From Methanothrix sp. (GTDB taxonomy: Archaea > Halobacteriota > Methanosarcinia > Methanotrichales > Methanotrichaceae): a stretch of 39,408 bases of DNA. Numbering within the stretch: position 1 is the stretch's first letter; every line of letters starts with the position of its first letter. The DNA lies in NCBI GenBank assembly GCA_020844795.1, contig CP086218.1, forward strand, positions 1,175,122 through 1,214,529, read 5' to 3'. The translations under genes and the position numbers were made by a program. The notes below the pieces were generated by a model. It searched no databases and was not told the DNA's origin. It saw only the letters and a program-made list of their open reading frames with translations. This document shows, in pieces, positions 30,658-39,408 of the stretch.

Positions 30658-31572
30658 GTGGATTATATAAACCAGATCAAGTTAGAGGCCGGGATGGAGA
30701 TAGATGAGCTGGTGAGGATGATGGAGCGTTGCGGCTTTGGGGCCAGGAGGCTGGCAGAAGCCGTCAACATCTACGAGGAGATGCTCTCGGAAGATTATAC
30801 CAGAGTCTTCACCCTGGCCGGCGCGATGATCCCTGCGGGGATGAGAAATATAATATCGTCCCTCATAAGGGAAGGGCGGATAGACGTCCTCGTATCCACC
30901 GGAGCGAACCTCGTCCACGACGTCATCGAGGGCTACAGCCATCACATCCTGGGAGATCCCGAAGCTTCCGACCCATCTCTGAGAGACGAGGGGATGAGCA
31001 GGATATTCGACGTCTATGTCGAGGATGGCGACTTCGCCAGGTTCGAGGAGATCCTTCAGGATTCGCTTCCAGAGGGGACCGACCCCATGACCGGAAGAGA
31101 GTTCTTGAGGCTCCTGGGAAGCAAGATCGACGACGAGAAGTCGATCCTGCGATCTGCCTACGACTGCGGCGTTCCCATCTTCTGTCCTGCCCTCTCCGAT
31201 TCGATGATCGGCTTACAGGCCTGGCTTTATAAGCAGACGAGAGGGCTAACCGTCGACGCCTTCGGCGACGTGGGGGAGCTGGTGGATATCTTCTACGGTG
31301 CTGAACGGTCAGGGATAGTGATCATTGGTGGAGGAGTCCCCAAGAACTTCGCCCTCCAGGCTATGCTCGTGACCCCAAAGAGCTTCGACCTCGCCATCCA
31401 GCTCACCACAGACCGACCAGAGGCTGGGGGGCTCTCGGGAGCGTCCCTATCGGAGGCGGTATCCTGGGGGAAGATCGGTCCGGAGGCGAGGAAGGTCACC
31501 GTCTACGGCGACGCCACCATCACCTTACCCCTGATGGTGGCGGCGACTCTGACCAGGCTTGAGAAGAAATAA
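30658..31572 (+). CDS. dys: Deoxyhypusine synthase
   Basis: A 304-residue deoxyhypusine synthase. It moves the aminobutyl group of spermidine to a lysine of initiation factor aIF5A, in an NAD-dependent reaction. The catalytic lysine is Lys272 in SEAVSWGKI, and the NAD-binding stretches STGANLVHDVIEG and GGGVPKNF are present. Length matches archaeal enzymes. Start is GTG 30658, with AGGGTGA upstream. It is divergent from the fpo operon. The gene for UbiX follows closely. Confidence 0.95.
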   Translation: MDYINQIKLEAGMEIDELVRMMERCGFGARRLAEAVNIYEEMLSEDYTRVFTLAGAMIPAGMRNIISSLIREGRIDVLVSTGANLVHDVIEGYSHHILGDPEASDPSLRDEGMSRIFDVYVEDGDFARFEEILQDSLPEGTDPMTGREFLRLLGSKIDDEKSILRSAYDCGVPIFCPALSDSMIGLQAWLYKQTRGLTVDAFGDVGELVDIFYGAERSGIVIIGGGVPKNFALQAMLVTPKSFDLAIQLTTDRPEAGGLSGASLSEAVSWGKIGPEARKVTVYGDATITLPLMVAATLTRLEKK

Positions 31573-31595
31573 AGGGCTGGTATGAGTTACCATCT

Positions 31596-32237
31596 TTGAT
31601 AGGACGTGGTATCATAAAGAGAACGGGAAAGATTCTTGACGTGGTGGTGGGGATCAGCGGAGCCTCCGGGGTAGCCTATGGCATCAGGCTCCTGGAGGTC
31701 CTGGCTGAGATGGGATCGGCCACCCACCTGGTGATGACCGATGCTGCCCGGAAGATAATAGAGATCGAGACGGAGGCGACTCCCATCGAGGTGGAGATGA
31801 TGGCCGACCGGGTCTATTCCCCCCGGGACTTCACCGCTTCGATAGCCAGCGGCTCTTACCTCTTCGACGCCATGGTGGTGGCTCCCTGCAGCATGAAGAC
31901 CCTGGCGGGGATAGCGAACGGCATCTCCGACACCCTCATCACCCGGGCGGCCGACGTCTGCTTGAAGGAGAGGCGCAGATTGATATTGGTGACCCGGGAG
32001 TCGCCCCTCAACCTCGTCCACCTGAGGAACATGGTCGCCGCCACCGAGGCGGGAGCTATCATCGTTCCTCCGTGCCCGGGCTTTTATACGAAGCCAGAGA
32101 CCGTCGAGGAGATGGTGGATGTGGTGGTGGGGAGGGTCTTGGACCTCCTCGGAGCCGACCACCAGCTCTCCAGGAGGTGGAGGACTCCGATGAGCGGAAA
32201 TGCTTATAACGACGAAAATCAGATGGAAAAGAGGTGA
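31596..32237 (+). CDS. ubiX: UbiX-family flavin prenyltransferase
   Basis: A UbiX-type flavoprotein that makes prenylated FMN from FMN and dimethylallyl phosphate, the cofactor of UbiD-type decarboxylases. The N-terminal GISGASGVAYGIRLLEVL is diagnostic. Further motifs are PCSMKTLAGIANGISDTLITRAADV, LVTRESPLNLVHLRNM and the PPCPGFYTKP end. It is 213 residues from TTG 31596; a GTG at 31641 would give a more usual N-terminus, and I cannot decide. The last 25 residues are a polar tail beyond the usual end. No ubiD is in the window, so the partner is elsewhere. Confidence 0.9.
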   Translation: MIGRGIIKRTGKILDVVVGISGASGVAYGIRLLEVLAEMGSATHLVMTDAARKIIEIETEATPIEVEMMADRVYSPRDFTASIASGSYLFDAMVVAPCSMKTLAGIANGISDTLITRAADVCLKERRRLILVTRESPLNLVHLRNMVAATEAGAIIVPPCPGFYTKPETVEEMVDVVVGRVLDLLGADHQLSRRWRTPMSGNAYNDENQMEKR

Positions 32238-32585: not shown

Positions 32586-32632
32586 GTGATGGTTTGTACT
32601 TCGTTCACAATACCAATTCGAGGCGAGATAAT

Positions 32633-34237
32633 TTGACACCATTTATTGAGATCCGGGACTTGACGGTGCGGTTTGGCGAAGTTGAAGCGCTGCGTGGCGT
32701 CAATTTGGAGATCTTGGAGGGGGAGTCTCTCGGCATCCTGGGGAGGAGCGGATCGGGAAAGAGCGTCCTTTTGCACGTCCTTCGTGGCGTCGAGACCTTC
32801 GAGGATATCAGCGGAAACGTGATCTACCACGTCGCACGATGTCCCAAATGTCGGAACGTAGAGCCGCCGAGCAGGGCGGGAGAGAAGTGCAGATGCGGCG
32901 GGTCTTTCGAGCCCTTCGACGCCGACTTCGTCTCCCTCGGGATAAACGACCGGGATAGACGGGACATATCTCGCAGGATAGCCATCATGCTCCAGCGGAC
33001 CTTCGCCCTCTACGGTGACGAGAGGGTGATCGTCAATGTCATGCGGGCCGTCGAGGAGGCGAGCGGGGGGTCGATCAGCGTCAACCGGGCGGCGGACCTC
33101 CTCGACGAGGTTAACCTCTCCCACCGGATGATGCATGTGGCCAGGGAGCTCTCGGGGGGCGAGAAGCAGCGGGTAGTCCTAGCCCGTCAGCTCGCCAAGT
33201 CGCCTATGATGCTCCTGGCGGACGAGCCCTCGGGGACCCTGGACCCGAAGACCGCAGAGCTGGTCCACGATAGCATAAAGCGGGCCGTCGAGGACTTCAA
33301 CATGACGATGGTCATCACCAGCCACTGGCCGGACGTCATGGTGGAGCTGACGGACCGGGCCGTCCTCCTCGACCGCGGCGAGATAGTATCCCAGGGCAAG
33401 CCGTCGGATATAGCCGCAGAGTTCGCCGCCATGGCAGGCAAGATAGATGAGAGGAAGAAGGCTGATGTCGGCGCCCCTATAATCCGATGTAAAGATCTCT
33501 CAAAGCGGTATATAAGCATCGACCGGGGTGTCATCAGGGCGGTGGACGACGTCAGCCTGGAGATCTACGAGGGTGAGATCTTCGGCCTGGTGGGGACGAG
33601 CGGAGCCGGGAAGACGACCCTCTCCAAGATGCTCAACGGGATCATCCTCCCGACGAATGGAGGGATATGGTGCAGGATCGGAGACGAGTGGGTGGATATG
33701 ACGGTCCTGGGCGCGGACCATAAGGGGAGGGCTACAAAATACATGGGGATGCTCCATCAAGAGTACACCCTCTACCCATACCGGAGCGTCATCGACAACC
33801 TCACCGAGTCGATCGGCCTCGCCCTCCCCTTCGAGCTGGCGGAGAGGAAGGCGATCCACACCCTCGTCACCGTCGGCTTCTCCGAGGAGGAGGCGATGAA
33901 GGTCCTATCCAAGAACCCCTACGAGCTGAGCGAGGGGGAGAGGCACAGGGTCGCCATGGCCCAGGTCCTCATCAAGGAGCCGAGGATAGTCGTCCTGGAC
34001 GAGCCTACGGGAACCATGGATCTGATAACCAAGATAGACGTCTCCAACTCCGTTCTGAACGCCAGAGAAGAGCTGGGCGAGACGTTCCTGATAGTCAGCC
34101 ACGATATGGACTTCGTCCAGAACGTCTGCGACCGGGCGGCGCTGATGCGAGACGGAAAGATCGTCCACGTGGGGACCCCCGATGGCGTCCTCAACCTGAT
34201 GACCAAAGAGGAAGAAGAGGAGATGCTGGGGAGTTAA
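32633..34237 (+). CDS. atwA: Methyl-coenzyme M reductase activation component A2
   Basis: A 534-residue protein with two ABC-type ATPase domains in tandem, the AtwA/A2 factor needed for ATP-dependent reductive activation of methyl-coenzyme M reductase. Domain 1 has Walker A GRSGSGKS (37-44), domain 2 GTSGAGKT, each with an ABC signature (LSGGEKQR, LSEGERHR) and Walker B (LLADEPSGT, VLDEPTGT). A Cys insert (Cys70, 73, 86, 88: RCPKCRN...KCRCGG) in domain 1 could hold a metal. No membrane segments, so not a transporter. Start is TTG 32633; the TTG at 32594 would add 13 residues without a Shine-Dalgarno. Confidence 0.94.
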   Translation: MTPFIEIRDLTVRFGEVEALRGVNLEILEGESLGILGRSGSGKSVLLHVLRGVETFEDISGNVIYHVARCPKCRNVEPPSRAGEKCRCGGSFEPFDADFVSLGINDRDRRDISRRIAIMLQRTFALYGDERVIVNVMRAVEEASGGSISVNRAADLLDEVNLSHRMMHVARELSGGEKQRVVLARQLAKSPMMLLADEPSGTLDPKTAELVHDSIKRAVEDFNMTMVITSHWPDVMVELTDRAVLLDRGEIVSQGKPSDIAAEFAAMAGKIDERKKADVGAPIIRCKDLSKRYISIDRGVIRAVDDVSLEIYEGEIFGLVGTSGAGKTTLSKMLNGIILPTNGGIWCRIGDEWVDMTVLGADHKGRATKYMGMLHQEYTLYPYRSVIDNLTESIGLALPFELAERKAIHTLVTVGFSEEEAMKVLSKNPYELSEGERHRVAMAQVLIKEPRIVVLDEPTGTMDLITKIDVSNSVLNAREELGETFLIVSHDMDFVQNVCDRAALMRDGKIVHVGTPDGVLNLMTKEEEEEMLGS

Positions 34238-34238
34238 C

Positions 34239-35765
34239 TTGAAAGTCTCTGTTAATGGTGCTGAGATCTCCCTCGAGGATGGCTTGACCCTCAGGGACGC
34301 CCTGGATACCGCAGGCGTCCTAGCCCCCGAGGGCGCCACCATCGGGATAGTCAAGGGCCGGGAGGAGGTGGAGCGAGAGACCGACTCTTACTGGCTCAAC
34401 ACCACCAAGGGCAAGCTGAGGATAGAGCTTATCGATACGGGGTTGCAGGAGGTCTGGCACGAGGCGGTCCGGCAGATACCGGGGCTTAAGGTCAGGTGGA
34501 GTGACGTCGCCGCCGTCGCCTTCGGTCCGGTCTCCACCAGGATCGCCCCCTCGAGAAGGGTGGAGGAGTACGACCGGTGGGAGGTGGCCCTGGGAGCCGG
34601 CGGCTTTGAGGCTGATAAGTCTCAGATAGTCTTCTCGAGGAAGAGACATTCTGCCGCCTACGGCTCCCCCGCCGAGAACCGGGGGGTCTTTGCGGCGGTG
34701 GTGGGGGGAAAAGACCTCCTGGGAAGGCTGGAGATGGGTGATTCGATCCTGGATGTGGAGCCTATCGTCGAGTGGGCGGCGCTCTCCGATAAGATGGCGA
34801 CCCAGGACCTCTCCCTCCCCCTCACCGACGGGATGGAGATCTACACCAGATTTGATGTCGACCTGAACGAATCGGCGCCCCAGGGGGCGGAGTTCTTCCT
34901 CGCGGCTACCAGGGACGGGGTCTTCGCCGTCGCAGGGACCTCCAGCTCCTTCGCCTCCACCGACGTCCTGCTGGGAGAGCGGATCGAGTTTGAGAACCGT
35001 GAGCCGAGGAGCGAGGGCGCCGTCACCATCCGGACGAGCGGGAGGGGGCTGGGGAGGATCTTCATCTACAAGGCGGACAGGACCTCCATCCCCGGCCACT
35101 CCATGGTGGGGAAGGTGAGATCCGGGATGGACCTGGTGAAGCTCGCCGAAGCGGGGATGAAGCTAGCGGTGAAGGTCAATCCCGAGAGGATCATGCTGAT
35201 GGGCCTTCCCCTCAAAGAGGCGGAGGAGATCGCTCAGGATCAGGGGATCGGCTTTGAGGTGGAAGGTCATACAGGAGACGATGCCGTGGTGGTGGAGCAG
35301 AAGCCCGTCACCACCATGCAGATCCTCAAAGAGAGAAAGGTAGTCGTCACGTCCATCCCGTCAGACCGGATGGTGGCGATAGAGCTATACGACGACCTCG
35401 CCCCCAAGACCCTCGACTACTTCAGGCACGTGGTGGGGCTGAAAGAGAAGCCGGTCGGACCTTTGCCCGTATACTTCGTCTACGAGAACACCGTCCTCTT
35501 CAAGCCGGCGATCTCGGCGACCAGCTACAAGGAGATACTCCCCGAGAATAAGCCCGATGAGTTAGTCCGGGCCGGCGAGATCGGGGTGACAAACCAGGCG
35601 GCAAAGAACGCCGGCCTAGTGGGGGTGAAGCTCGTCGACGACACCAGGTACGGCCCCTCTGGAGAGAAGTTTTTGGCGACGAACATCGTCGGCAGGATCC
35701 TCGAGCCCGAGAAGCTCCGGTCCGTTAGAGAGGAAGAGACCGTTTACGTTCTGGAGGTCCGATAG
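34239..35765 (+). CDS. mmp3: Methanogenesis marker protein 3 (cyclophilin-like)
   Basis: A 508-residue MMP3. Residues 1-70 resemble a beta-grasp (ThiS/MoaD-like) domain, opening KVSVNGAEISLEDGLTLRDAL. A cyclophilin-like segment, MVAIELYDDLAPKTLDYF, starts at residue 378. From published work as I recall it, MMP3 is part of the complex that activates methyl-coenzyme M reductase together with A2, McrC, MMP7 and MMP17; its exact role is not settled. TTG 34239 starts one base after the atwA stop, with GGGGAG just upstream. Confidence 0.92.
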   Translation: MKVSVNGAEISLEDGLTLRDALDTAGVLAPEGATIGIVKGREEVERETDSYWLNTTKGKLRIELIDTGLQEVWHEAVRQIPGLKVRWSDVAAVAFGPVSTRIAPSRRVEEYDRWEVALGAGGFEADKSQIVFSRKRHSAAYGSPAENRGVFAAVVGGKDLLGRLEMGDSILDVEPIVEWAALSDKMATQDLSLPLTDGMEIYTRFDVDLNESAPQGAEFFLAATRDGVFAVAGTSSSFASTDVLLGERIEFENREPRSEGAVTIRTSGRGLGRIFIYKADRTSIPGHSMVGKVRSGMDLVKLAEAGMKLAVKVNPERIMLMGLPLKEAEEIAQDQGIGFEVEGHTGDDAVVVEQKPVTTMQILKERKVVVTSIPSDRMVAIELYDDLAPKTLDYFRHVVGLKEKPVGPLPVYFVYENTVLFKPAISATSYKEILPENKPDELVRAGEIGVTNQAAKNAGLVGVKLVDDTRYGPSGEKFLATNIVGRILEPEKLRSVREEETVYVLEVR

Positions 35766-36191
35766 GTGAAGTCTACCAAGTACGTGGTGACGAGTCAGGA
35801 TTCCGATGTCCTCCCCTCCGATATAGCCCTCAGGATTTACGAACTCGGCCGCGACATAAACGTCAAAGAGACCTGTTTTGGCGTCATCATCGACGGCGAA
35901 GAGGAGGATATATCGGCGACGGTGGAGGATCTGAGGAAGATGGACGAGACCAACATCTTCATCAAAGATCGGGGCTTCTCTCCCGGAGACCCACGAAGGT
36001 GCAGGGGCCACCGAGGCGGCGGGGCCAGGCCCGGCTTTTACATGATGGAGCACGAGTCAGAGATCCTGCCCCTGATATCCCGGGGGCTCGCCTCCGAGGC
36101 TAGGGGGGAAGATCCTCCCTCCGGGGTCGAGACTAAGAGGCGTCCGACATTGGAAGATTTGGAAGCGATGATTAACGAGGAATTTTCCTGA
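35766..36191 (+). CDS. mmp6: Methanogenesis marker protein 6
   Basis: A 141-residue MMP6, conserved in methanogens and of unknown role. The N-terminal part (KYVVTSQDSDVLPSDIALRI, then ETCFGVIIDGEE) is the conserved core. A basic Gly/Arg-rich patch (RRCRGHRGGGARPGF) follows, then an acidic C-terminus. It begins with GTG immediately after the mmp3 stop, so translation is coupled. No membrane segment. Confidence 0.88.
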   Translation: MKSTKYVVTSQDSDVLPSDIALRIYELGRDINVKETCFGVIIDGEEEDISATVEDLRKMDETNIFIKDRGFSPGDPRRCRGHRGGGARPGFYMMEHESEILPLISRGLASEARGEDPPSGVETKRRPTLEDLEAMINEEFS

Positions 36192-36200
36192 GGTCCTTTC

Positions 36201-36638
36201 ATGGTTAAAGTCATGGTATACCCCCCCACCAGCATGATCCTCGCGGATCTCGTCGAGAGGAAAGGCCACGAGGCGCTGGTAGTCTCAAAAGAAGTGAGAA
36301 AGAAGGTCGACACCCCCGGTCTCGACTCGCCCCCCCTGAACATGACCACCGAAGACCCCAAGAAGGGGCTGAAGTACGCCGCCGTCGACGTCCCCTCCGG
36401 GGTGAGAGGGAGGATGGCGCTCCTGGGGCCGATGATAGAGGAGGCGGAGGCGGCGATCGTGATAAAAGGAGACGACTGCACCCTGGGGTGCACCGGCTGC
36501 GCCAGGACCAACGAGCTCGCCCGCTTCCTCCTCAAGACGAAACGGATACCCCTTCTGGAGCTCGAATACCCCGAAGATGAGGTTGAAGCGAAGCGGTTCG
36601 TCTTCAAGATCCGGGAATTTCTGGAGGGTTTGAGTTGA
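36201..36638 (+). CDS. mmp5: Methanogenesis marker protein 5
   Basis: A 145-residue MMP5. A cysteine cluster [10 protein letters not shown] (Cys93, 97 and 100) stands in the C-terminal half, followed by [20 protein letters not shown]. This order, a hydrophobic strand, cysteines, a helix and an IPxLE strand ending in a helix, resembles the N-terminal domain of MMP15 encoded next and the C-terminal part of 2-hydroxyacyl-CoA dehydratase D-component subunits. An Fe-S cluster is plausible. Function is not established. ATG 36201 follows GAGGT; the end overlaps mmp15 by four bases. Confidence 0.9.
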
Positions 36639-37861
36639 TCAGGATAGCCCAGCTCTCCTGCGGCCCCGAGTACAGCGGCGTCCAGGGGGAGCTGCAGAAG
36701 GCGGCCGACATGGTGGGAGCGGAGCTGATATTCCCCGAGGTCTCCCTCGAGGACGTCATGAACGTGGAGGAGAGGTTCGGGATCGAGGTGGCCAGCGGCG
36801 ACCTCAACCTCGCCATGGCCAGGGCGACGCGGATCGTGGAGAACCCCGACCTCGCCGACGCCGTCTTCGTCGCCACCTGCTTTCGGTGTGCCGAAGGCGC
36901 CATAGTTCGAAGCGAGATCAGAAAGTACATCCATGAGAACTCCAGGATCCCCGTCCTCAGCTACTCCTTCACCGAGAGGACGACCGCCGAGACGCTCCTC
37001 ACCAGGATGGAGGCCCTCGTCACCACCGCCAAGTTCAAGGGACTATTATCCCGGGAGAGACAGACGGGCCTCACCGCCGGGATCGACTCCGGCTCGACGA
37101 CGACCAAGTCGGTGGTAATGAAAGATAACGAGGTGATAGGGACAGGCTGGGTTCCCACTACGGAGGTCGTCAAGAGCGCCGAGGCAGCCTACAACGCCGC
37201 CCTCGAATCCGCCGGCGTAAAGAGAGAGGAGATCCAGGGGCTGGGGACGACGGGGTACGGCCGCCACCTGGTGGGAAGAGAGTTCGGGGCGAAGCTGATC
37301 CAAGAGGAGATCACCGTCAACTCCAAGGGGGCGGTCTTCCTGGCGGAGGCCCAGAAGGGCGAAGCCACGGTGATCGATATCGGTGGGATGGACAACAAGG
37401 CGATATCCGTCCAGGACGGGATCCCTGGGACCTTCACCATGGGCGGGATCTGCGCCGGGGCCTCGGGGAGGTTTCTGGAGCTCACCGCCAGGCGGCTCGG
37501 GGTCGACATAACGGAGCTGGGGAAGCTCGCCCTGAAGGGGGACTACCAGAAAGTCCCCATGAACAGCTACTGCATCGTCTTCGGGACCCAGTCCCTGGTG
37601 AACAGCCTCTCGGCAGGATCGAAGCCCGAGGACGTGGCGATGGCCGCCTGCCACAGCGTCGCAGAGCAGGTCTTCGAACAGCAGCTGCAGGAGGTGGAGG
37701 TGAAAGAGCCGGTGATCATGGTGGGGGGTACCGCCCTGATCGAGGGGCTCCCCCGGGCGATGGAGCAGCTTTTAGGGATGAAAGTTATGGTCCCCCATTA
37801 CGCCCAGTATATCGGCTGCGTCGGCGCTAGCCTCCTCGTCTCCGGCCTCGTGGAGGATTGA
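36635..37861 (+). CDS. mmp15: Methanogenesis marker protein 15, activase-type ATPase
   Basis: A 408-residue MMP15. Residues about 148-408 are an ATPase of the BadF/BadG/HgdC activator family (ASKHA fold): phosphate loop DSGSTTTK (151-158), DIGG (248-251) and VGGTA (363-367). The two cysteines that bridge a [4Fe-4S] cluster between subunits in HgdC are present, Cys273 ([11 protein letters not shown]) and Cys313 ([10 protein letters not shown]). Residues 1-140 are an extra domain with Cys9, Cys82 and Cys85 and an RIPVL strand resembling MMP5. It should be an ATP-driven low-potential electron donor; the acceptor is unknown. The TTG/ATG-type start overlaps the mmp5 stop by four bases. Confidence 0.93.
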
Positions 37862-37862
37862 G

Positions 37863-38438
37863 ATGGAGATGGACCCCCTCGAGGTCTTCGAGGTCGAGAT
37901 GCCCGGAGAGGGTTACGGGGCCGATAAGTACCGGGAGATCATCATGGACATCCTCCAGGATCTGGGGCTCATCAGGTCGATAGGGAGGCTCTACGTTTAC
38001 GTCAACATAGAGAGACCCTACTTCGCCGTCTTCGGGATGATCCGGGGGAAGCTGCCTCCCCTGAAGGTGGAGGAAGTCGGCGACCTGGTGGCCGCCGAGG
38101 GCGGGTATCAGATCACCGTTGAGGACGAGGAGCATATGGCGGGGCTCATCCGAGCCCTCTGGGGCGCCTACGGCCGGGAGAAGGTGGAGCAGCCCGATAG
38201 AAACGTCCTCGTGGTCCTATCGGAGGAGTCGCCCGGAGGTCTGGTGGTGGCGGATCTGGAGACGGAGTTTCGACGCGACCTCCTGGACGCCCTGGTACGG
38301 ATAGCCCCCGAGGGCTTCAGGAACCGGAGGAACGAGATGGCAAAAGATAACTTCTTCTTTTTGGCGGCGGAAGAGACGATAACTCCAGAGATCATCGCCG
38401 AGGCCAAAGAGAGGCTGGGGGGTATGCGAGATGCTTGA
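37863..38438 (+). CDS. mmp17: Methanogenesis marker protein 17
   Basis: A 191-residue MMP17 without any cysteine. The first half opens MEMDPLEVFEVEMPGEGYG and continues with LYVYVNIERPYFAVFGMIRG; the second half ends in a helix rich in charged residues. In earlier work MMP17 co-purified with the methyl-coenzyme M reductase activating complex, so it is probably a structural partner of MMP7 and MMP3. It starts one base after the mmp15 stop and overlaps mmp7 by eight bases. Confidence 0.9.
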   Translation: MEMDPLEVFEVEMPGEGYGADKYREIIMDILQDLGLIRSIGRLYVYVNIERPYFAVFGMIRGKLPPLKVEEVGDLVAAEGGYQITVEDEEHMAGLIRALWGAYGREKVEQPDRNVLVVLSEESPGGLVVADLETEFRRDLLDALVRIAPEGFRNRRNEMAKDNFFFLAAEETITPEIIAEAKERLGGMRDA

Positions 38439-39354
38439 TCCCGTGATGTTCACCGGCGGCGTCTACAAGCACGACCTGGTGACGGAGCTCATCGAGGACC
38501 TGGGAGGCTACCTCCTCCAGAAGAACGTCACCCAGAGCGAGGTGATCCTCCTGATGCTCGTCCCCCACGAGGACATGCCGGCGTTGGAGGCTATGACCAA
38601 GGAGCTGAAGGGGAAGCTGGAACGGGCTCCCCTCGCGGGGACGGAGATCGCCGTCGTCACCCCGACCCTCGCCATCCATCACCTCCCCCACCCCGCCTGC
38701 GACGTCGCCGAGTACATCAGGAGGCATGGGGCCAAGAGCAACATGATTGGGATGGGGCGGGGGGTCGCAAGAGAGATCTCCCAGATGGACGAGTTCGAGT
38801 CCGCCCTCATCAACGAGCACGACGCCGTCGTATTCACCTTCGGAAACTTCGCCGACTGCATCCTCAAGAAAGAACACCTCTATCGGACCCTCACCGTCCC
38901 CGTCATCGTCACCGGTGGCCCCGAGATGAAGAAAGAAGATCGCCCTTACGCCTTCGAGTACGTCCCCAACGTCGGCCGGATCGCCCACAGGTCCCGGAAG
39001 GCGACGGAGATCGGGTCCCTCGACAACATCATCGCCGCCGTTGGGAGGGCCCTCGACAGCGTCCGGGCCTCGATATCGAAGGACCCCCTCACCACCACCC
39101 CGCCGAGGGCGATGGAGGTGGTTAGAGAGCAGGTCCCTGACGTTACGCAGTCCCTTTCGCCGCTGCCGATAGCCCTTAACCTCAACGGCCTGAGGATTAA
39201 GCTGCCATACGATGAGTACGCTGAGGCGGTCGCGGGGGTGGAGTTCGACGAGGGCGTCACCCTTGGGGAGATCGCGAAGGTGATGCCCTCGAGGATGAAG
39301 AACTATATACTCGTTCGGATATTGCCCGTATCAGAGACCGGCTTTGTCGTCTAG
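38431..39354 (+). CDS. mmp7: Methanogenesis marker protein 7
   Basis: A 307-residue MMP7. Conserved stretches are MFTGGVYKHDLVTELIEDLG at the start, THHLPHPAC-like PTLAIHHLPHPACDVAEYI in the middle and the FGNFADCILKKEH segment. Two cysteines, in PHPACDVAEY and NFADCILKK, are candidate cluster ligands. MMP7 was found in the methyl-coenzyme M reductase activating complex. The start lies within the end of mmp17, on the eight-base overlap, so translation is coupled. Confidence 0.9.
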   Translation: MLDPVMFTGGVYKHDLVTELIEDLGGYLLQKNVTQSEVILLMLVPHEDMPALEAMTKELKGKLERAPLAGTEIAVVTPTLAIHHLPHPACDVAEYIRRHGAKSNMIGMGRGVAREISQMDEFESALINEHDAVVFTFGNFADCILKKEHLYRTLTVPVIVTGGPEMKKEDRPYAFEYVPNVGRIAHRSRKATEIGSLDNIIAAVGRALDSVRASISKDPLTTTPPRAMEVVREQVPDVTQSLSPLPIALNLNGLRIKLPYDEYAEAVAGVEFDEGVTLGEIAKVMPSRMKNYILVRILPVSETGFVV

Positions 39355-39364
39355 GTGAGGGGAA

Positions 39365-39408
39365 ATGAGCTTTGAAGAAGATCTGGAGAAGGTCCTGGAG
39401 AAGGGGAC
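39365..39408 (+). CDS. Start of the next gene in the marker cluster (truncated)
   Basis: ATG 39365 opens a frame that runs off the window (MSFEEDLEKVLEKG...), eleven bases after the mmp7 stop, with GGTGAGGGG just upstream. Only 14 full codons are visible, acidic and helical, too few to assign. Another methanogenesis marker is likely by position. Confidence 0.6.
   Translation, partial: MSFEEDLEKVLEKG

Follow-up and report, generated by a model that had tools for sequence, protein, structure and literature searches.

MMP5 and MMP15, conserved proteins encoded in the MCR activation gene cluster of methane-metabolizing archaea, as candidate sources of low-potential electrons

The closest described systems to the gene pair considered here are the activators and D-components of 2-hydroxyacyl-CoA dehydratases and their relatives. 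HgdC and HadI (PDB 1hux and 4eht), which activate 2-hydroxyacyl-CoA dehydratases, have the same activase fold and cluster cysteines as residues 147-401 of MMP15. The D-components BzdN/BzdO and HadB/HadC (PF06050, HGD-D) have a C-lobe that is matched by MMP5 and by the N-terminal domain of MMP15 (MMP15-N). According to the available part of PMC11971306, the [8Fe-9S] cluster of BzdN is ligated by Cys36, Cys73, Cys100, Cys263, Cys293 and Cys327, with a helix of residues 327-343 starting at Cys327. DCCP with its reductase DCCP-R (PDB 7yyl) resembles MMP5 and MMP15 in that an archerase is combined with a D-type protein; the same portion of PMC11971306 describes how this system reduces small molecules, the site being an [8Fe-9S] cluster. 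The differences are in architecture. The five solved activases listed among our matches are 243-276 residues long, too short for an N-terminal domain such as that of MMP15. Compared with D-components, MMP5 and MMP15-N are half size and without the N-lobe, and have an extra C9 and an extra CxxC. DCCP is a complete, two-lobed protein, whereas here the C-lobe-like halves are split over two genes, one of which is fused to an activase.

The MCR activation complex, McrC-MMP7-MMP17-MMP3-A2, is the described system whose Mmp and A2 genes lie in the same cluster as mmp5 and mmp15. In the available part of its cryo-EM report (PMC12176620), three [8Fe-9S-C]-like clusters form a path from the MMP7/MMP17 surface to F430, and activation requires ATP and electrons of very low potential. 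The ATP requirement of the purified complex was ascribed to the ABC protein A2, activity was obtained with Ti(III) citrate and not with DTT, and the authors propose that further Mmp proteins take part (PMC12176620, same part). A review states, in its available part, that DTT worked with components A2 and A3a (PMC9081873). MMP5, MMP6 and MMP15 are unnamed in the available main text of PMC12176620, and MMP5 and MMP15 are unnamed in PMC9584954.

The window analyzed here is a 39,408-nucleotide stretch of a Methanothrix sp. genome. TIGRFAM-type models identified the cluster A2-MMP3-MMP6-MMP5-MMP15-MMP17-MMP7 at window positions 32594-39354 (Table 1). A preliminary description of this DNA had placed overlapping mmp5 and mmp15 genes inside the MCR activation cluster, and this arrangement was borne out; the overlap is the four bases TTGA, which contain the TGA stop codon of mmp5 and the TTG start codon of mmp15. 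The full gene order was found in 55 of the 80 loci from the genome contig set that encode an MMP15 N-domain, and the other 25 had a partial cluster in the same order. Genes for deoxyhypusine synthase and a UbiX flavin prenyltransferase lie upstream on the same strand (30658-32237). The cluster has been listed among methanogenesis markers (available part of PMC3226654) and the single CxxC of DUF2112 has been noted (available part of PMC9425974). In the open literature, to which our search was confined, we found no paper in which MMP5 or MMP15-N is classed with the D-component.

Table 1. Genes and sequence features of the mmp5-mmp15 region in window coordinates
Feature	Position	Strand	Evidence and remarks
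atwA (component A2, ATPase of MCR activation complex)	32594..34237	+	TIGR03269, E 3e-249
mmp3	34239..35765	+	TIGR03268
mmp6	35766..36191	+	TIGR03272
mmp5 (145 aa, DUF2112)	36201..36638	+	TIGR03271, E 9e-66; predicted free D-component C-lobe-like alpha/beta domain with invariant CxxC
MMP5 C97-x-x-C100	36489..36500	+	Start of helix 98-113, after strand 3; 62/62; C97 opposite HGD-D C339
MMP5 RIPLLELEY (115-123), fourth strand	36543..36569	+	Sequence; P117 in at least 97%
mmp15 (408 aa)	36635..37861	+	TIGR03286, E 7e-212; predicted D-component C-lobe-like domain fused N-terminal to HgdC-type activase
MMP15 N-terminal domain (1-142), invariant C9, C82, C85	36635..37060	+	67/67; hhalign to HGD-D C-lobe P 2.2e-7, 93.6%
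MMP15 C82-F-R-C85	36878..36889	+	Directly before helix 86-102; C85 opposite D-component cluster ligand
MMP15 RIPVLSYSF (104-112), fourth strand	36944..36970	+	Sequence; P106 and Y110 invariant, 25/25
MMP15 activase (archerase-type ATPase) domain (147-401)	37073..37837	+	TIGR00241; VIA Z 35.6 MbdQ, 33.4 HgdC
MMP15 C273, predicted bridging [4Fe-4S] ligand	37451..37453	+	Opposite HgdC Cys127; 67/67 homologues
MMP15 C313, predicted bridging [4Fe-4S] ligand	37571..37573	+	Opposite HgdC Cys166; 67/67 homologues
mmp17	37863..38438	+	TIGR03291; adjoins outermost cluster of published complex (PMC12176620, available part)
mmp7	38431..39354	+	TIGR03274; bears outermost [8Fe-9S-C]-like cluster (PMC12176620, available part)

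Stretches of 100 N connect the contigs of the source assembly, and the window ends at such a join. A second region, running from the end of A2 through mmp3, mmp6, mmp5, mmp15, mmp17 and mmp7, was found at G000:C1:862103-867828 (loci L002, L213 and L214) and is 86.9% identical to window positions 34094-39405. We considered whether this region represents a paralogue. Given this level of identity and its location on a different contig of such an assembly, it is more probably a co-binned strain variant. Nothing similar was found among plasmid records.

The activase half of MMP15 was assigned directly. The BadF/BcrA ATPase domain is present at full length (TIGR00241, E 3.4e-99 over positions 2-248 of 248; PF01869, E 2.9e-73), and it is already recognized by public models. 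The AlphaFold2 model of MMP15 has a pLDDT of 88.9 and a pTM of 0.87. In VIA comparisons of residues 147-401, MbdQ and HgdC were followed by HadI (Z 32.1-32.4), with rmsd values of 1.5-1.9 Å to these three proteins; DCCP-R came further down (Z 26.1), and the next proteins, glycerol kinases, had Z scores near 21. Among the matches listed, the structural alignments span the activase half only. C273 and C313 align with the cluster cysteines in all five solved activases among these matches, the HgdC residue numbers in Table 1 having been counted along the structure-match alignment; residues 272-274 have pLDDT values below 50 in the monomer model. The activase ATPase fold and the two bridging cysteines of HgdC-type archerases, both of which the preliminary description had attributed to MMP15, are thus present, and its proviso that Cys273 and Cys313 might vary among homologues found no support. 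We conclude that residues 147-401 are an HgdC-type activase. Six cysteines of MMP15 are invariant in all 67 distinct homologues, namely C9, C82, C85, C273, C313 and C339. The last of these (window 37649-37651) lies in the activase domain, and none of the five solved activases listed has a cysteine at that position.

Homologues were counted after removal of identical sequences, which left 67 MMP15 sequences from 73 stretches and 62 MMP5 sequences from 68. Before folding, six of the 80 loci for MMP15 and three of the 80 for MMP5 were left out as short or missing, followed by near-identical ones, and the family alignments comprise 25 MMP15 and 23 MMP5 sequences of those available. The third invariant cysteine of MMP15-N, C9, follows strand 1. 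The cysteine cluster previously described in MMP5 was narrower than thought: C97 and C100 are kept throughout, whereas position 93 is a cysteine in only 7 of the 62 homologues. The AlphaFold2 model of MMP5 has a pLDDT of 80.4 and a pTM of 0.74, with residues 43-50 and 56-61 under 50. Both models have the same order of elements, consisting of a strand, a helix, a short strand, helices, a strand, the cysteine loop, a helix, a strand and a helix, and we therefore predict that MMP5 and residues 1-142 of MMP15 share one alpha/beta topology. This agreement between models speaks against the two folds being unrelated, an outcome for which the preliminary description had allowed. The same description had proposed a common sequence pattern. 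Direct hhalign comparison of MMP5 with MMP15-N gave P 1.1e-4 (2.5e-4 in reverse), better than the best of 150 column shuffles (4.6e-3), and the RIPLLELEY and RIPVLSYSF segments are present as described; however, masking the cysteines reduced the match to P 1e-3 over 21-22 columns, so this direct likeness is weak. By hhalign, both domains match the D-component C-lobe more closely than they match one another.

For hhalign comparisons we used three profiles, those of MMP15-N, of MMP5 and of the D-component, the last built on 54 sequences encoded in archaeal genomes. The control panel was small, with 66 families derived from neighboring open reading frames. MMP5 and MMP15 are themselves among these; the other 64 are unrelated, and the panel includes some wrong-frame shadows. 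Self-matches aside, both proteins matched the D-component C-lobe best, MMP5 giving P 2.5e-6 (88.8%; see Table 1 for MMP15-N). With the C-lobe as query, MMP15-N and MMP5 gave P 5.0e-6 and 5.7e-6, respectively. The best unrelated panel families reached P 1.5e-2 with MMP15-N, 2.2e-3 with MMP5 and 1.9e-2 with the C-lobe, and the best of 150 column shuffles against the C-lobe reached 1.4e-2 for MMP15-N and 1e-3 for MMP5. Masking the cysteines left P values of 5.5e-7 (MMP15-N) and 1.6e-5 (MMP5), so the match is not carried by the cysteines. The D-component N-lobe as target gave P 9.5e-3 with MMP15-N and 2.3e-3 with MMP5, and matched its own C-lobe at P 1.1e-4. Nitrogenase-like proteins (PF00148) were also considered as relatives, but their best matches, P 1.1e-2 for MMP15-N and 5.3e-3 for MMP5, were at background; the D-component C-lobe itself matches two PF00148 profiles weakly (P 6e-4 and 7e-4).

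The alignments placed MMP5 C97 and MMP15 C85 on C339 of the D-component reference, a residue kept in 54 of 54 sequences. By counting, this position is opposite BzdN Cys327, the cluster ligand at the start of a helix. Neither MMP5 nor MMP15-N has an invariant counterpart of BzdN Cys263 or Cys293, and MMP15 C9 falls two alignment columns from reference C251, which is itself a cysteine in only 5 of the 54 sequences. Each protein model contains a single C-lobe-like lobe, with two invariant cysteines in MMP5 and three in MMP15-N; D-components are marked by two lobes and, between these, three to six ligand cysteines, an arrangement absent from both MMP5 and MMP15.

Other searches gave a fainter signal. 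The Pfam HGD-D model matched 2 of 23 MMP5 members (best E 0.02) and none of 25 MMP15-N members, in no case passing the Pfam cut-off. Searches of PDB sequences with the MMP15-N profile returned five matches with E up to 10, none of them a dehydratase, and with the MMP5 profile returned DCCP at E 0.32-0.55. Foldseek ranked BzdN (8s02 chain B), DCCP (E 0.04) and a dehydratase beta subunit first for the MMP5 model, with E 0.03-0.06, followed by an unrelated fourth match at E 0.07. In VIA-align, TIR and DNPH1 came first, with Z up to 10.4, and the C-lobe of DCCP had rank 44, with Z 7.5 and an rmsd of 4.8 over 124 aligned residues. The Pfam, PDB-sequence and structure searches are by themselves too weak for a D-component link. 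Thus, of the earlier suggestion that these proteins resemble dehydratase D-components, the profile match to the C-lobe withstood its controls, but the geometry of MMP5 is not clearly that of a dehydratase lobe. Taking the profile comparisons together, we consider it highly probable that MMP5 and MMP15-N are kin to the C-lobe of the D-component found in 2-hydroxyacyl-CoA dehydratases, benzoyl-CoA reductases and double-cubane proteins.

In contrast to HgdC and HadI, MMP15 occurs in a source genome with no HGD-D match (87.7% complete assembly), and the only BadF/BcrA matches in that genome are the two MMP15 copies. HGD-D exceeded its cut-off in 36 of 196 genomes, including 19 of the 122 genomes among these that encode MMP15; one weak match (G195, E 8e-4) was left out of the counts. 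At E 0.001, at least two MMP15-model matches were present in 19/19 genomes with HGD-D compared with 33/103 without it. Outside family f7 the latter figure was 6/75, the source genome being among the six by virtue of its strain-variant copy. Fisher's test outside f7 gave p 5e-15, the genomes not being independent of one another. Since genomes with HGD-D carry extra activase matches, and since the source genome has no HGD-D, we judged it unlikely that MMP15 serves as the activator of an ordinary D-component.

We then surveyed 246 genomes of the phylum, applying family cut-offs unless stated otherwise. MMP15 was over its cut-off in 151 genomes (177 match at E 0.001) and MMP5 in 148, all of them among the 151. 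The three exceptions, G093, G229 and G239, are 74-92% complete and also have no full second copy of MMP15. MMP5 is likewise present on 68 of the 73 stretches with MMP15, some of which come from the same genomes, and the remaining five belong to families f7 and f25. McrA was found at E 0.001 in 146 genomes (147 with a weak match in G119, E 2e-4, that was left out), 108 of them over the cut-off, and MMP7 in 152 genomes, 106 of them over the cut-off; the MMP7 model may also pick up McrC, because most genomes have two matches. With McrA counted at E 0.001, MMP15 is missing from two genomes that have McrA, and McrA from seven that have MMP15.

Two full-length MMP15 copies were found in 31 of 36 f7 genomes and in both f25 genomes. 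Comparison of the two copies in four f7 genomes showed 44-47% identity and all six cysteines in each copy. MMP5 lies directly upstream of the lower-scoring copy in all 32 f7 genomes that have MMP5, and the rest of the cluster is absent from the f7 stretches retrieved; in the two f25 genomes MMP5 was seen beside neither copy. The lower-scoring f7 copy groups with f17, f29 and f31 in the MMP15 tree (support 100/99). In the MMP5 tree, f7 and f25 group with f17 and f29 (95/94) and with f31 (80/42), following the lower-scoring MMP15 copy. These data agree with the previous description of MMP5 and MMP15 as a pair. The anciently split copies (L229-L232 and L224 in f7; L234-L236 in f25) possibly form a heterodimeric activase like MbdP/MbdQ. 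A natural MMP6-MMP5 fusion was observed in an f6 genome (L050, open reading frame from base 1169; blastp E 2e-23 to MMP6 and 1.5e-43 to MMP5), hinting that MMP6 is a third partner. Open frames of 267-277 amino acids at the MMP5 position in other f6 genomes suggest the same fusion.

By analogy with the known systems, an archerase and a D-like acceptor encoded in the same cluster would be a natural source of the MCR-activating electron, and our leading interpretation, about as likely as not, is that the MMP15-MMP5 pair injects low-potential electrons specifically for MCR activation, with a presumed target in the activation complex. In such a mechanism MMP15 would be a dedicated archerase, two copies of which would form a putative dimer sharing one predicted [4Fe-4S] cluster through C273 and C313. 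ATP hydrolysis would bend this pair and push an electron to very low potential. The acceptor would consist of two half-size relatives of the C-lobe replacing a full D-component, one being MMP15 residues 1-142, with C9, C82 and C85, fused before each activase, and the other being free MMP5, with C97 and C100. Through a cluster on one or both halves, the electron would reach the surface cluster at MMP7/MMP17, the contact, direction and target all being presumed, and would then travel via the McrC clusters to F430, where Ni(I) would form. In HgdC one injected electron can serve many turnovers, and the same property here would fit a transient helper role. Loose binding would also explain why pull-downs lack MMP15 and MMP5; BzdPQ, too, is believed to associate no more than transiently with BzdNO (available part of PMC11971306). 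A more elaborate version, which we regard as possible but doubtful, is that MMP5 and MMP15-N close over a shared high-nuclearity cluster held by their five invariant cysteines, forming a split D-component with a built-in archerase that supplies electrons to the [8Fe-9S-C]-type clusters in the MCR activation complex.

The main rival is cluster maturation, in which MMP15-MMP5, perhaps with MMP6, would spend its ATP-driven electron on the assembly, fusion or insertion of the [8Fe-9S-C]-like clusters found in McrC and MMP7, at a step after NifB, with MMP5 or MMP15-N acting as a scaffold and not as an electron relay. We consider this rather unlikely, although several observations are in its favor. 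We know of no archerase that works in cluster assembly, while the MMP6-MMP5 fusion would fit such a role. According to the available part of PMC12176620, the complex bears three such clusters that NifB is thought to make, nifB follows the Mmp cluster in M. marburgensis, and the cluster-loaded purified complex was active without added MMP15 when given Ti(III) citrate. Moreover, the available part of PMC11971306 describes [8Fe-9S] double-cubane clusters held by relatives of the D-component. Maturation would nevertheless supply no electron source to replace the Ti(III) citrate of the published assay, as injection by MMP15-MMP5 would. Between use of the electron for activation and for cluster building, the data favor neither decisively.

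Two further explanations were weighed. MMP15 could re-reduce some other low-potential methanogenesis cofactor, for example a corrinoid or a [4Fe-4S] enzyme, and be clustered with MCR genes only as a fellow methanogenesis gene. Activase relatives act on several acceptors, and the two MMP15 paralogues in most f7 and both f25 genomes may mean two jobs. The conserved gene order, complete or partial in every one of the 80 loci, and the near match of MMP15 presence to that of McrA and MMP7 at E 0.001 across the 246 genomes make this explanation quite improbable. Alternatively, MMP15 could be an ATP-dependent chaperone or a kinase-like remnant, in which case MMP5 and the N-domain would be ordinary Rossmann-like domains with cysteines that bind either zinc or no ligand at all. 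The geometry of MMP5 is that of a generic Rossmann-like domain, and the ATPase fold is common to more distant actin-like kinases. We nonetheless find a non-redox role very improbable in view of the HgdC-type cysteines being in place and the invariance of six cysteines in MMP15 and two in MMP5, which for MMP15 extends to both paralogues in four f7 genomes.

MMP5 and MMP15 are therefore good candidates for the electron source that switches on MCR, and candidate proteins, residues and a partner can now be named for formation of Ni(I) F430. If electron injection by this pair is correct, it would provide a function class for two conserved proteins of methane-metabolizing archaea and, judging from divergent McrA copies, also of alkane-metabolizing archaea, and would extend archerase chemistry to nickel. 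If the split D-component also exists, an ATP-driven electron pump would be present in nearly every MCR-bearing genome sampled, and it would join dehydratase-type and nitrogenase-type low-potential chemistry.
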